NCBI GenBank assembly: GCA_947627915.1 | Contig: CANQXT010000004.1 | Span: 1-45,911 of the forward strand | Reading direction: 5' to 3' | DNA length: 45,911 nt | Source: an uncultured Bacilli bacterium | GTDB lineage: Bacteria; Bacillota_I; Bacilli_A; RF39; UBA660 | Shown: piece by piece, positions 10,095 through 28,838 of the stretch | Layout of the letters: each line of letters opens with the position of its first letter | Position numbering within the stretch: the first letter of the stretch is position 1 | Notes under the pieces: generated by a model | Databases searched by the model: none | What the model was told of the DNA's origin: nothing | What the model saw: the letters and a program-made list of their open reading frames with translations, nothing else | Translations under genes and position numbers: made by a program

Positions 10095-10111
10095 ATTATA
10101 CCTTAAAAAAA

Positions 10112-10183
10112 GCACACACAAATAGGGATTGATGTGGCTGCTGTCTTCCAACTCTGACCAGGTTACAATATATTTGTTGTGCG
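10112..10183 (-). ncRNA. ffs: Signal recognition particle RNA (small bacterial 4.5S type)
   Basis: Minus-strand CGCACAACAAATATATTGTAACCTGGTCAGAGTTGGAAGACAGCAGCCACATCAATCCCTATTTGTGTGTGC: conserved GGTCAG..GGAAG.CAGCAGCC core, closing helix, then T7. Confidence 0.88.
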
Positions 10184-10248
10184 TAATTATATTAACATAT
10201 CTATATAAATAATTCAAGATATATTTCGATTATATTATGTCAACCAAT

Positions 10249-10264
10249 TATTTCCCGGGAAATA
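10249..10264. promoter_or_regulatory. Noc-binding-site-like palindrome (NBS), perfect
   Basis: TATTTCCCGGGAAATA. Confidence 0.85.
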
Positions 10265-10300
10265 TTATTTTTACATTTTCACAGTATTATGTAAACCAAT

Positions 10301-10316
10301 TATTTCCCGGAAAATA
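10301..10316. promoter_or_regulatory. NBS-like palindrome, one mismatch
   Basis: TATTTCCCGGAAAATA. Confidence 0.7.
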
Positions 10317-10357
10317 ATTTATTTATTTTATTTCAATTAATTTAGCTTTATAATCAA

Positions 10358-10373
10358 TGTTTCACGTGAAACA
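10358..10373. promoter_or_regulatory. parS site, perfect
   Basis: TGTTTCACGTGAAACA. Confidence 0.95.
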
Positions 10374-10551
10374 TTGATAAAAATAATTAATTAGTTGGTA
10401 GAAAATAATCTAATCTATATAACAATTTTATTTTTTTGCATTAAAGAAAACATTTTTTAATATTTTTGATTTAACTATTAAAAAATTTTAAAATGCAAAA
10501 ATTATTTTTTTATTTTAGTGTATCTACATTTATCATGTTACGTAAATTAAT

Positions 10552-10567
10552 TATTTCCTAGGAATAT
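10552..10567. promoter_or_regulatory. Degenerate NBS-like site
   Basis: TATTTCCTAGGAATAT in the same flanking context (ATGTTACGTAAATTAAT) as the other NBS copies. Confidence 0.4.
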
Positions 10568-10597
10568 TTTTTTGATTAACTATTTTAATATAATTAA

Positions 10598-10613
10598 TGT
10601 TTCACGTGAAACA
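10598..10613. promoter_or_regulatory. parS site, perfect
   Basis: TGTTTCACGTGAAACA. Confidence 0.95.
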
Positions 10614-10780
10614 TTTAGCATTTACACATTTAAAATTTAAAATTAATTTAAAAATTGTTAAATTAATTCATTATTTTTTTAAAATTAGTAATTATTTAAT
10701 AAAGATATTATAAATGATATAAACAACTAAAATAATAAAACTATGCATTTTATATTTTTAAAACACAATTTTTCAAATAA

Positions 10781-10796
10781 TGTTTCACGTGAAACA
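10781..10796. promoter_or_regulatory. parS site, perfect
   Basis: TGTTTCACGTGAAACA inside a 34-bp perfect palindrome (10772..10805). Confidence 0.95.
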
Positions 10797-10981
10797 TTAT
10801 TTGAATTAAAACATCAATTATTATAATATTTAATAGTAAAGTTAATTATTATTAAATTTATTTAAATCTATCAAATAAATAATTTATAAATCAATTTTAA
10901 TTCTTATCTTACTAAATAATAGATTTTGTTTATACAATAAGCAGTTTTATAGTTTAAAATTTTAAAATTATTTTATATTAA

Positions 10982-10997
10982 TGTTCCACGTGAAACA
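10982..10997. promoter_or_regulatory. parS site, one mismatch
   Basis: TGTTCCACGTGAAACA inside a ~40-bp palindrome with one mismatched pair. Confidence 0.85.
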
Positions 10998-11042
10998 TTA
11001 ATATAAAATTAAATATAAATATTCATAAATAAGTTTAAATAT

Positions 11043-11077
11043 AAAAAAACAACATTTCATATGAAATATTGTTTTTA
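11043..11077. terminator. AT-rich hairpin, candidate gyrA terminator
   Basis: AAAACAACATTTCATATGAAATATTGTTTT; T-run on both strands. Confidence 0.45.
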
Positions 11078-11103
11078 CATTTTTATATATTATGTAAACC
11101 AAT

Positions 11104-11119
11104 TATTTCCCGGGAAATA
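11104..11119. promoter_or_regulatory. NBS palindrome, perfect
   Basis: TATTTCCCGGGAAATA. Confidence 0.85.
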
Positions 11120-11142
11120 ATTTAATTATTATGTCAACCAAA

Positions 11143-11158
11143 TATTTCCCGGGAAATA
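11143..11158. promoter_or_regulatory. NBS palindrome, perfect
   Basis: TATTTCCCGGGAAATA, a few bp from the gyrA stop codon. Confidence 0.85.
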
Positions 11159-11161
11159 TTT

Positions 11162-13723
11162 TTATTGATTATCTTCGTTTTGAATGTCATTAATTTCTTC
11201 AACTTTATCAACAATACTTACTGTAGCAACAGTTTGATTTTCTCTTAATGAAATCAATCTTAAACCTTGTGTTACACGACCTAAAATAGATATTTGTTCA
11301 ACTGGTAATTTAATAGTTATACCCGCATTAGTCATAATAACAACATCTTTATTATCTTCAACTATTTTAGAAGCAACTAAAGTACCATTCTTTTCTGTAA
11401 TATTTAGTGCTAAAACACCTTTACTTCCTCTTTTTGTTTGACGAAAATCAGCAACTTTTGTTCGTTTTCCGTATCCTTTCTCTGTAACTAATAATAACAT
11501 TGAATCTTCTTCAGTAACTTCACAGCAAATACAATCATTTTCCCCTAAGTTAATACCTCTAACACCGGATGCTGTACGTCCCATTACTCTAACTTCGGAT
11601 TCATCAAATTTTACCATTCTACCATTGTTGCTTCCTAATAATATCATATTATTACCTGAAGTTTTCTTAACAGCAATTAACTCATCATTATTTTTTAAGT
11701 TAATACATATCTTACCTGAGTTTCTAATATTATCAAATTCTTTTATATCAGTACGTTTAACAATACCTTTTTTAGTTGCAAATAATAGATATTTAGCTTC
11801 ATCTTCCTTAGTTACCTTAATTATAGTATTAATTTTTTCTCCTTTTTCAATTTGTAATAAATTAATTGCTGGTAAACCTTTAGATTGTCTACTAAATTCT
11901 GGTATTTCATAACCTTTTAAACGATATACTTTTCCTTTATTAGTAAAGAACATAATATAATCGTGAGTTGAAATATTAATTAAATGAGTTACAAAATCTT
12001 CATCCGTAGTCGTTAATCCTTTTATTCCAACTCCACCACGATTTTGAACTTTAAATGTATCATTCTTCGTTCTCTTAATATATCCTTTATCAGTCATAAT
12101 AATCATAGAATCTTCTTCAGGAATTAATGATTCATCTTCTATATAATCAATAGCAGTCATATCAATAGTTGTTCTTCTTTCATCTCCATATTTATCTTTA
12201 ATTTCTAATAATTCTTTTCTAATTATTTCTAACACTTTTTGTTCAGATGCCAATATTGCTTTTAATTCTTCTATTTCTTTCAATAAGGCATTTAACTCTT
12301 CTTCTATCTTATCTCTTTCTAGACCAGTTAAACGACGTAATTTTAATTCTAATATAGCATCAGCTTGGACTTCAGATAAACTAAAGCGACTAATTAATTT
12401 AGCTTTTGCATCAATATCGTCATCTGCAGTTTTAATAATATTAACAACTTCATCAATATTATCTTGAGCTATCTTATAACCTTCTAAAATATGTACTCTT
12501 TTTTCATCTTTTGCTAAGTCAAAACGAGTTCTTCTAATTATGACTTCTTTTTGATGATCTATATACTTAGAAATTATATCTTTTAAGCCAAGTGTTTTTG
12601 GAGTACCATTATCAAGCATTAAAAATATTATACCATAATTAACTTGGAAAGATGTATGTTTATATAAATTATTTAAAATTATTTGAGGATTAGCATCTCT
12701 TTTTAATGTAATAGTTATTTTTACTCCATCTTTTAAATCAGTATGATAATCTGTTATACCATCAATGATTTTGTCTCTTACTAATTCAGCAACTTTTTCT
12801 TTTAATTCTTGGGTATTAACACCATATGGAACTTCAGTTATAGTAATTATATTATGATTATTATGTTCTTCAATAGTTGCTCTACTTCTAATTGTAATTG
12901 AACCACGACCAGTTTCATATGCTTTTTTTATTCCCGAATTACCTAAAATAATACCACCAGTTGGAAAATCAGGTCCTTTTATATATTGCATAAGTCCTAA
13001 TGTATCAATTTCTGGATTATCAATATAAGCAACACATCCATCAATAACCTCACCTAAATTATGAGGTGGAATATTTGTTGCCATACCAACAGCAATTCCC
13101 ATTGAACCATTTACTAAAATATTTGGAAATCTTGATGGTAATACTTTAGGTTCTTCCAACGTTTCATCATAATTAGGAGTCATATCAACAGTATCTTTGT
13201 TGATATCTTTCAATAACTCTAAGGAAATTTTGGCAAGTCTTGCTTCAGTATAACGATAAGCTGCAGCTCCATCTCCTTCGATATTACCAAAGTTTCCGTG
13301 ACCATCAATAAGCATATATCTTTGATTGAAACTTTGAGCTAATCTAACCATTGCTTCATAAATAGATGAATCACCATGTGGATGATAATGTCCCATAACG
13401 TTACCAACTGTTGTAGCTGATTTTCTATGAGGTTTATCAGGGGTATTACCTTCTTCATACATAGACCATAAAATTCTACGATGAACTGGTTTTAATCCAT
13501 CTCTTAAGTCTGGAATAGCTCTTGAAGTAATTACACTCATTGAATAATCTAGAAAAGAATCTTTTACTTCATCAACAATATTATTTTCTTTGTGTGAATC
13601 TCTTTCGTGAAATTCACCACCATAATTATTTTCTGATTGTTCTTCTAATTCATTTTCTATATTATCAGATTCATTATTAGGACTATCATCATTAATTGTT
13701 TTATTTATTTCTTCATTATCCAT
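11162..13723 (-). CDS. gyrA: DNA gyrase subunit A
   Basis: YSMSVITSRAIPDLRDGLKPVHRRILW...; directly downstream of gyrB. Confidence 0.98.
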   Translation of the reverse strand: MDNEEINKTINDDSPNNESDNIENELEEQSENNYGGEFHERDSHKENNIVDEVKDSFLDYSMSVITSRAIPDLRDGLKPVHRRILWSMYEEGNTPDKPHRKSATTVGNVMGHYHPHGDSSIYEAMVRLAQSFNQRYMLIDGHGNFGNIEGDGAAAYRYTEARLAKISLELLKDINKDTVDMTPNYDETLEEPKVLPSRFPNILVNGSMGIAVGMATNIPPHNLGEVIDGCVAYIDNPEIDTLGLMQYIKGPDFPTGGIILGNSGIKKAYETGRGSITIRSRATIEEHNNHNIITITEVPYGVNTQELKEKVAELVRDKIIDGITDYHTDLKDGVKITITLKRDANPQIILNNLYKHTSFQVNYGIIFLMLDNGTPKTLGLKDIISKYIDHQKEVIIRRTRFDLAKDEKRVHILEGYKIAQDNIDEVVNIIKTADDDIDAKAKLISRFSLSEVQADAILELKLRRLTGLERDKIEEELNALLKEIEELKAILASEQKVLEIIRKELLEIKDKYGDERRTTIDMTAIDYIEDESLIPEEDSMIIMTDKGYIKRTKNDTFKVQNRGGVGIKGLTTTDEDFVTHLINISTHDYIMFFTNKGKVYRLKGYEIPEFSRQSKGLPAINLLQIEKGEKINTIIKVTKEDEAKYLLFATKKGIVKRTDIKEFDNIRNSGKICINLKNNDELIAVKKTSGNNMILLGSNNGRMVKFDESEVRVMGRTASGVRGINLGENDCICCEVTEEDSMLLLVTEKGYGKRTKVADFRQTKRGSKGVLALNITEKNGTLVASKIVEDNKDVVIMTNAGITIKLPVEQISILGRVTQGLRLISLRENQTVATVSIVDKVEEINDIQNEDNQ

Positions 13724-18654: not shown

Positions 18655-20013
18655 TTATAACTTTGATTTAATTTCTTTTAGCATATCATTTAATGTAACA
18701 TTAGTAATTAATTCACTTTTAATTTTTTCACAACTAGCTACAACTGTTGAATGATCTCGTCCACCAAATTCTTGACCAATCTTTAAGAGATTTTCTTCTG
18801 TTTCAATTCGGCATAAGTACATAGCAATATGTCGAGGTCTTGCTATATTATAACTTCTCTTTTTACTCTTTAAATCCTCTACTGTAATCTTGAAAAAATC
18901 TGCAACTACTTTTTGAATATGCGATATTGTATTTTCTTGATAAATATTAGTATTTACATAATCTTTTATAGCTTCAATAGTAAAATCTAAATTAATTACT
19001 TGTGGTCGCATCATTGCTGTATATGCAAGTAATCTATTAATAGTACCAATTATATGTCTTACATCATTAGGACAAGCATTAGCAATGTATTCTATAACAT
19101 CTTTATTAACTTTATCTTTTATACTTGAATTCTTTAAATGTTGTTTGATTATTTCACATCTAAGTTCAAAGTCAGGTGGATAAATATCAACCGGTAATCC
19201 CCAAGTAAATCGACTTCTAAGTCTATCTTCTATTTTCTTTAAATCATCGGGACTACGATCACTCGATATTATTATTTGTTTATTTGCTTTATATAAAGCT
19301 TCAAAAGTATGAAAGAATTCCTGTTGAGTGCCTTCATTACCTACTAAGAACTGAATATCATCAACGATTAAAACATCAACATTACGATATTTATTCTTAA
19401 AGTTATTAGCATATTCTAAAGTTTCTTTTCCTTTTTCTTTTTTAGATATTTCAACATATTCATCTCGAAAATCATTACTAGTAGTATATAATACTTTTTT
19501 ATTAGAATTTTCGTGAATATAATTTCCTATTGCATACATAAGATGTGTTTTTCCAATTCCACTTCGACCATATATAAATAATGGATTATTTATTGTACTA
19601 GGAGATTGGGCAACATTCATTGCTGAAACAAATGCTAGTCTATTAGATTCTCCAACTATATAATTGTCAAAATTCATTGATGGATCTAGGTTTGTTTCCC
19701 ATTCCGTTGGATTACTAGTATTCTCTTCATTATTATTAATATTTAAAATACTTTTTTCTTCTTCTAATTCATCTTCTGTTAAGAATTTAAATTTATACAT
19801 TTTACCAGTTAGAGATGTTGTTACATCTTCAATTATATCCATATATTGTTGTCTTAACATTGTTTTATGAGTTTGAAGAGGTACTTTAATGACAATTTCA
19901 TCATCATTCATTTCAATCAATTTTAAATCATTAAACCAAATTGAATAAGATCCAGAACTGACTTCTTCTGAAATTTGATGCAAAAATTGTTTAAAAAATT
20001 CGTGTGCTTCCAT
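18655..20013 (-). CDS. dnaA: Chromosomal replication initiator protein DnaA
   Basis: NPLFIYGRSGIGKTHLMYAIGNYI...VDDIQFLVG...GGRDHSTVVASCEKI. Confidence 0.98.
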   Translation of the reverse strand: MEAHEFFKQFLHQISEEVSSGSYSIWFNDLKLIEMNDDEIVIKVPLQTHKTMLRQQYMDIIEDVTTSLTGKMYKFKFLTEDELEEEKSILNINNNEENTSNPTEWETNLDPSMNFDNYIVGESNRLAFVSAMNVAQSPSTINNPLFIYGRSGIGKTHLMYAIGNYIHENSNKKVLYTTSNDFRDEYVEISKKEKGKETLEYANNFKNKYRNVDVLIVDDIQFLVGNEGTQQEFFHTFEALYKANKQIIISSDRSPDDLKKIEDRLRSRFTWGLPVDIYPPDFELRCEIIKQHLKNSSIKDKVNKDVIEYIANACPNDVRHIIGTINRLLAYTAMMRPQVINLDFTIEAIKDYVNTNIYQENTISHIQKVVADFFKITVEDLKSKKRSYNIARPRHIAMYLCRIETEENLLKIGQEFGGRDHSTVVASCEKIKSELITNVTLNDMLKEIKSKL

Positions 20014-27851: not shown

Positions 27852-28838
27852 ATGATAAGTGTGAAGAATGAATCACAAGTTTTAAATTTACCAATTGAGG
27901 ATATTATACCCAATCGTTTTCAACCACGCTTAAATTTTGATGATAACGGTTTAAAAGAGTTAGCAGCGTCAATTAAAGAGCATGGCATAATTCAACCATT
28001 AGTAGTTAGAAAAATTGGCGAAAAGTATGAAATAATTGCAGGTGAAAGAAGATATAAAGCATCTAAAATGGCAGGTCTTAGTGAAATTCCTGCTATTGTA
28101 ACGCAAATGGATGATAAGAAAAGTGCTGAAGCTGCTATTATAGAAAATATTCAAAGAAAAGATTTATCAGCAATTGAGGAAGCAAAATCTTATGAAGCTC
28201 TTTTAGATAAAGGATATACTACACAAGATAAATTAGCCCAACAAATGGGTTTAAGTCAATCAGCAATATCTAATAAATTGAGACTCTTATCTTTATCCGA
28301 TAATGTTCAAAAAGCTTTAATGGAATCTAAAATATCTGAAAGACATGCTCGAAGTTTATTACAATTAAAAACACATGAGGAACAAGATGAATGGTTAAAA
28401 ATAATTATCGATGAAAGATTAACTGTTAAAGAACTTGATGAAAGACTTAAAGGTAATAAAAAGAAAGAAGATGATTCTTTGTTAAATTTAAATAAAAATA
28501 ATGATAGTAGTGATAAACCAGGTATTAATTTAGTCTTTGATGAAAAACCAATACCTAATAAATTCTTTAATTTTTTAGAAGATGAAGAAGCTAATATGAC
28601 TATGACTGAGAAAACAGATGTTACCGATACACCAACTAATGAATTTAAAATGGAATCTAATGATGATGTCGAAATGTTAGATTTTGTTCCAGCTATACCT
28701 AAAAAAGATATGACAATTGCTATTGAATTAGTAGAAAAATTAAAAAATGATTTAAAAGCAAATAATTTTCAAGTATCTGTTTTAGAAGATAATAGTGATG
28801 ATGAATTAAAATATAAAATAATCATAAGTAAAAATTAA
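27852..28838 (+). CDS. noc: ParB/Noc family nucleoid occlusion-like protein
   Basis: ParB N-domain IIAGERRYKA, AAIIENIQRKDLSAIEEAKSY; HTH LSQSAISNKLRLLSL...ISERHARSLL is Noc-like; position after rsmG as for noc. Confidence 0.8.
   Translation: MISVKNESQVLNLPIEDIIPNRFQPRLNFDDNGLKELAASIKEHGIIQPLVVRKIGEKYEIIAGERRYKASKMAGLSEIPAIVTQMDDKKSAEAAIIENIQRKDLSAIEEAKSYEALLDKGYTTQDKLAQQMGLSQSAISNKLRLLSLSDNVQKALMESKISERHARSLLQLKTHEEQDEWLKIIIDERLTVKELDERLKGNKKKEDDSLLNLNKNNDSSDKPGINLVFDEKPIPNKFFNFLEDEEANMTMTEKTDVTDTPTNEFKMESNDDVEMLDFVPAIPKKDMTIAIELVEKLKNDLKANNFQVSVLEDNSDDELKYKIIISKN

Follow-up and report, generated by a model that had tools for sequence, protein, structure and literature searches.

Intermixed parS and NBS sites beside gyrA suggest a composite, origin-proximal centromere for ParB and Noc in a family of uncultured Bacilli

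The parS/NBS locus beside gyrA

In the window, by which we mean the whole stretch of 45,911 nucleotides of DNA analysed here, four parS and four NBS (the sites of Noc) lie between the small bacterial SRP RNA (10097..10193, - strand; RF00169, 50.6 bits) and the 3' end of gyrA (11162..13723, - strand; NF004043, 1135 bits). A motif search found them, going toward gyrA, in the order N N P P P P N N (N for NBS, P for parS): NBS 1 (TATTTCCCGGGAAATA, 10249..10264, exact), NBS 2 (TATTTCCCGGAAAATA, 10301..10316, one mismatch), parS 1 (TGTTTCACGTGAAACA, 10358..10373, exact), parS 2 (10598..10613, exact), parS 3 (10781..10796, exact), parS 4 (TGTTCCACGTGAAACA, 10982..10997, one mismatch), NBS 3 (11104..11119, exact) and NBS 4, the outermost toward gyrA (11143..11158, exact), with three of the four sites of each type being exact copies. 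The NBS were scored as a 14-mer starting at 10250, 10302, 11105 and 11144, the 16-mer beginning 1 nt earlier, and for parS only 0.16 matches at ≤3 mismatches are expected by chance from shuffled sequence. A sequence-only reading of the same DNA had described this cluster, and its coordinates and order agree with ours; the NBS pairs that it placed at both ends are present as well, although the second NBS carries its one mismatch. Its additional degenerate NBS, a decayed NBS-like palindrome (TATTTCCTAGGAATAT, 10552..10567), was dropped as evidence, given that 5 of its 16 positions differ from the 16-mer and that alone it is not significant; the left flank of this palindrome is similar to the flank of the real NBS.

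When both motifs were counted through the whole of this organism's own genome (1.29 Mb in 90 contigs, 92% complete), no further parS or NBS was found at ≤2 mismatches, and NBS is therefore not dispersed through that genome. Between the locus and dnaA (18655..20013, - strand, by tblastn orthology; 7.5-9 kb from the locus) lie gyrA, gyrB, recF and dnaN, and oriC is probably beside dnaA. The earlier proposal of a locus near the origin that combines ParB and Noc sites is borne out, the locus being within about 9 kb of dnaA and conserved.

All four NBS of the window carry a conserved 13-bp flank, TTATGTNAACCAA, on their tadA side, a feature absent from the sequence-only reading, in the form of TTATGTCAACCAA before NBS 1 (10235..10247, + strand) and NBS 4 (11129..11141, + strand), and of TTATGTAAACCAA before NBS 2 (10287..10299, + strand) and NBS 3 (11090..11102, + strand). 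In the genus, the flank accompanies 43 of 86 NBS of the gap (in the loci of 15 genomes), standing on the tadA side only in 33 cases, on the gyrA side only in 2, and on both sides in 8, where a long palindrome results. We considered TTATGTNAACCAA as an independent element and rejected it, because it is almost never found away from NBS (a single exact copy without a nearby NBS in 647 kb of extracted regions) and never beside parS.

The Noc-lineage protein and its partner ParB

Two ParB_N proteins are encoded in this genome. The first, a Noc-lineage ParB paralogue (27852..28838, + strand), is located after mnmE-mnmG-rsmG and keeps the CTP and HTH domains, besides having a long linker with the motif PNKFFNFLEDE. 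In a phylogenetic tree, this protein and its family relatives group with the Noc of B. subtilis and Geobacillus, and the second protein, from contig C18, groups with ParB (support 100/98). Of the Noc specificity set Q, K, K, R defined by Jalal et al. 2020 (PMC7383237), the window protein has Q136, K142 and R164, with S147 at the third position, the position-184 lysine of known Noc proteins being S here; K or R at 179 or 184 has been described as permissive (PMC7383237). TIGR04285 (nucleoid_noc) is still its best-scoring model, and because the score of 274.7 bits is under the curated cut-off of 315, the protein is best classed as belonging to the Noc lineage but not as a standard member of it.

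The second protein is a ParB with the ParA-binding motif ALGRGLEQLF, and its gene adjoins that of a ParA-type ATPase; neither gene is within the window. ParB proteins of the genus (L108, L279-L284) keep R173 and have S in place of G201, a residue described as invariant in ParB, and their parS is nonetheless canonical. Near parA-parB in L108 (genome G000, contig C18), we also noticed by eye a putative reverse-transcriptase-like ORF of 353 aa.

Conservation in the genus

The genus was sampled in 38 genomes for parS and 37 for NBS, with the tadA-gyrA gap readable in 35; these, like all genomes compared in this work, are fragmented metagenome assemblies. This gap contains 112 of the 113 parS of the genus and 86 of its 120 NBS. 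As many as 112 of the 120 NBS are inside the extracted regions of ≤20 kb, and those of them outside the gap mostly recur at two places, namely between orf147 and dnaN and upstream of recR, all of them no more than about 10 kb away. The number, order and spacing of sites differ between genomes of the genus. The NBS 16-mer itself is near-invariant (100 of 112 exact), and in the closest genome pairs the sites are 98-100% identical versus 63-90% for the spacers between them. Two pairs of more distant genomes have lower site identities, 73% and 93%, which fits a gain and loss of sites.

Spread in the family and beyond

For the family, a strict close-pair pattern of exact parS and NBS cores no more than about 72 bp apart gave hits in 56 of the 288 genomes, representing 28 of the 102 genera, a count that must be too low, since the window's own genome fails this pattern. 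In a class-wide sample, close pairs occurred in 13 of 47 genomes of the family (by row count) versus 1 of 247 in other families of Bacilli (Fisher 8e-11, computed with 46 and 248). A scan of named genomes returned at least 115 stretches with a close parS/NBS pair, the record titles among the matches listed being uncultured Bacilli, Tenericutes, Erysipelotrichaceae, Clostridia or similar, with Candidatus Onthousia and Scybalousia also among the matches listed, and nearly all the loci among these matches sit between dnaX/tadA and gyrA. At least 16 loci of six or more sites alternate parS and NBS perfectly, and the longest alternating arrays among the matches listed are L160 (25 sites), L137 (22), and L159 and L187 (18 each). 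The scanned loci were selected by the presence of a close pair, which in part predetermines the alternation statistic but does not account for the long regular arrays. Different genera arrive at the mix of parS and NBS through different spacings, in which no common helical period between neighbouring sites was apparent by eye, and site counts from related genomes are not independent events.

Outside the genus, 73 NBS were located in 24 genera, 44 of them on the noc contig at no more than 26.1 kb from the gene, and the remaining 29 on other contigs, mostly of unplaced position. Given that 44 of 73 are within this distance of noc, the NBS of these organisms are read as few and near the origin where this is checkable, rather than scattered. 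The family itself appears as a large group of uncultured gut bacteria that share intermixed ParB and Noc sites at the side of the origin.

NBS depend on Noc and on its NBS-reading glutamine

Among 60 genomes of 60 genera, NBS was found in 50 of 55 genomes with Noc versus 1 of 5 without it (p=0.0012). In addition, the NBS-reading glutamine has been lost in 3 of 80 Noc proteins, those of G002 (L), G120 (V) and G080 (E), and NBS is missing from all three of these genomes versus 3 of the other 77, for which a hypergeometric calculation by hand, with kinship ignored, gives about 2e-4; the Noc proteins of G002 and G120 are in one part of the tree, and so these two may not be independent losses. The three other genomes, G099, G124 and G146, keep the glutamine, and no NBS was found in them at ≤1 mismatch; the stretches extracted from them lie away from the gyrA locus. 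Taken together, these co-variations indicate that NBS is dependent on Noc and on its NBS-reading residue. Besides parS, no replacement site was found for the altered Noc of G002.

A separate observation comes from G120, which lacks NBS and has a Noc with a changed helix, and whose tadA-gyrA gap (L276, 9958-10976) contains nine copies of an altered parS, GTTACACGTGTAAC, with two symmetric changes. It is possible that this array is a natural change of centromere specificity.

The missing membrane anchor and nucleoid occlusion

Noc is the textbook link of chromosome position to division in Firmicutes, and this role rests on scattered sites together with a membrane helix. In B. subtilis, the first ten residues of Noc form an amphipathic helix required for membrane binding and function (PMC4331003), and this N-terminus was confirmed in PDB 7ol9. 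In all 80 Noc proteins of the family, PNRFQPR is preceded by only 14-22 residues (39 in B. subtilis). For 70 of these proteins, a stop lies no more than 30 residues upstream, too close for a longer N-terminus; an N-terminal amphipathic membrane helix was found in none of the 80. Textbook occlusion by Noc is not supported in this family as we read it, because this helix is missing and the sites do not span the chromosome. Of the combined segregation and occlusion centre suggested earlier, what is supported is the combination of sites, with Noc and a ParB beside ParA both encoded, and what is not supported is the occlusion.

A classical occlusion with the anchor relocated would be another way to read these proteins, with NKFFNFLEDE of the linker forming an internal amphipathic helix, through which Noc would still bring origin DNA to the membrane and exclude the Z ring from that region. 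A comparable peptide is SRFFGLGEKE of the B. subtilis N-terminus. MinC was looked for in 38 genomes of the genus and found in none, with 6 of 14 control genomes yielding it, so another control of the division site might be needed. Family Noc proteins have long, variable linkers, with PNKFFNFLEDE conserved in the window's genus and weaker FFN versions in roughly one in three of the other genera read, but the motif is absent from many Noc proteins of the family, and it is acidic, with a single lysine. An AlphaFold model of the window Noc gives its ParB-like domains with high confidence and only a short, poorly supported helix at 240-246 of the linker. Moreover, the 1-8 sites, beside the origin only where this could be checked, are too few for occlusion to cover the nucleoid, and we regard a relocated anchor as doubtful.

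A composite loading centre for two clamps

Both site types, their confinement and conservation, the presence of a ParB and a Noc lineage, and the way NBS depend on Noc and its NBS-reading residue are seen in the sequence, and on them we build the following proposal. The locus is very likely a composite loading centre for both proteins, and it is likely, with somewhat more reserve, that the whole 0.93-kb region is a composite origin-proximal centromere where two clamps are loaded and where the role of Noc is restricted to the origin. ParB and Noc are known as CTP-dependent sliding clamps (PMC8429893). In the proposed mechanism, ParB would load at parS and the Noc-lineage protein at NBS, the two being interleaved 16-bp palindromes, with each protein nucleating at its own site, closing on CTP and sliding, so that both clamp populations would share a few kilobases beside oriC, and with ParA as the partner of ParB at the locus. 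Since this Noc is not spread over the chromosome and is without the N-terminal helix, it would most likely have a second, origin-restricted function, and its long C-terminal linker, for example through the FFNFLEDE motif, may recruit a partner or the membrane. Because parS and NBS are intermixed at one spot and the membrane anchor is missing, the task of Noc is probably at the centromere and not the protection of the chromosome as a whole. That its role is specifically the tethering or positioning of the origin is a tentative suggestion. Whether one reduced-genome family of Bacilli has a new type of bacterial centromere, with Noc turned from a division guard of the entire chromosome into an integral second clamp and with NBS alternating with parS, in some loci as regular arrays of as many as 25 sites, is in our judgement evenly balanced.

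The ParB-parS part of this system shares with Spo0J/ParB-parS of B. subtilis an identical 16-bp parS consensus, a ParB beside ParA and sites near the origin, and differs from it in having nearly all parS within about 1 kb beside gyrA and intermixed with NBS. With the Noc-NBS system of B. subtilis and Geobacillus it has in common the identical NBS 16-mer, a gene after rsmG, the Noc clade, and the Q/K/R specificity and CTP-fold residues. In contrast to that system, it has 1-8 origin-near sites instead of NBS scattered round the chromosome as in B. subtilis (PMC4331003), no N-terminal membrane helix, a replaced position-184 lysine, a long linker and, in the genus, undetected MinC. S. aureus Noc shares the NBS core and an enrichment of sites toward the origin, with 41 binding loci over about 1.4 Mb (PMC5540599), and in the literature examined no nesting of parS and NBS is described for it. 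We found no published report of nested parS and NBS at all in a search that left subscription journals and preprints outside its scope.

Here, then, is a whole family with Noc and exact NBS, yet without scattered sites or the membrane helix, and with the sites merged into what would be a centromere. Its members provide natural experiments (Noc lost, a specificity residue of Noc lost, and one altered parS) for asking how DNA specificity and function are divided among ParB paralogues, and the family raises the directly testable question of how two sliding clamps act on the same DNA.

Other readings of the NBS

In all 34 genus loci that contain parS as well as NBS, the site nearest to gyrA is an NBS, where shuffling would give 14.7 such loci, and NBS stand at both margins of 22 of the 34, versus 4.7 by shuffling, the shared ancestry of these species making the shuffles overstate independence. 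Such brackets are what one would expect of a boundary, with Noc bound at the marginal NBS blocking the way of sliding ParB clamps into gyrA and the adjacent operons. However, the bracket is no rule among the listed loci of other genera, where many end with parS toward gyrA and many arrays merely alternate, and B. subtilis Noc with CTP itself slides off NBS (PMC8429893), all of which makes a boundary function unlikely.

Equally improbable, to our mind, is a control of replication in which Noc loaded beside oriC restrains initiation, as in S. aureus. The precedent of S. aureus Noc exists (PMC5540599), the sites are 1-10 kb from dnaA, and an NBS recurs in the orf147-dnaN gap of many genomes, but the S. 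aureus effect is not ascribed to DNA binding alone and belongs to a Noc with its many binding loci, and no tie of this Noc to DnaA is seen here.

The CCCGGG palindromes might, instead of being protein sites, end the transcription of gyrA and its neighbours, and the NBS pair adjoining gyrA does fold, as RNA, into a strong hairpin (-32.5 kcal/mol, z=-5.3). Yet the 16-mer is fixed in sequence and not merely self-complementary, NBS also stand in the middle of the gap alternating with parS and are gone when Noc or its glutamine is lost, and a scan for terminators calls none of these NBS. We rejected this very improbable reading as the main explanation. Chance, or a passive tandem duplication without function, has a negligible probability: some arrays are clearly duplicated units, but chance is excluded by the shuffles and the genome-wide confinement, and passive duplication is opposed by sites that outlast their spacers and by spacings that differ among genera.

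As a minor observation at the start of the window, a SpoVT/AbrB-like protein is encoded at 254-760 (TIGR02851, 98.7 bits, below the cut-off) in this small genome.
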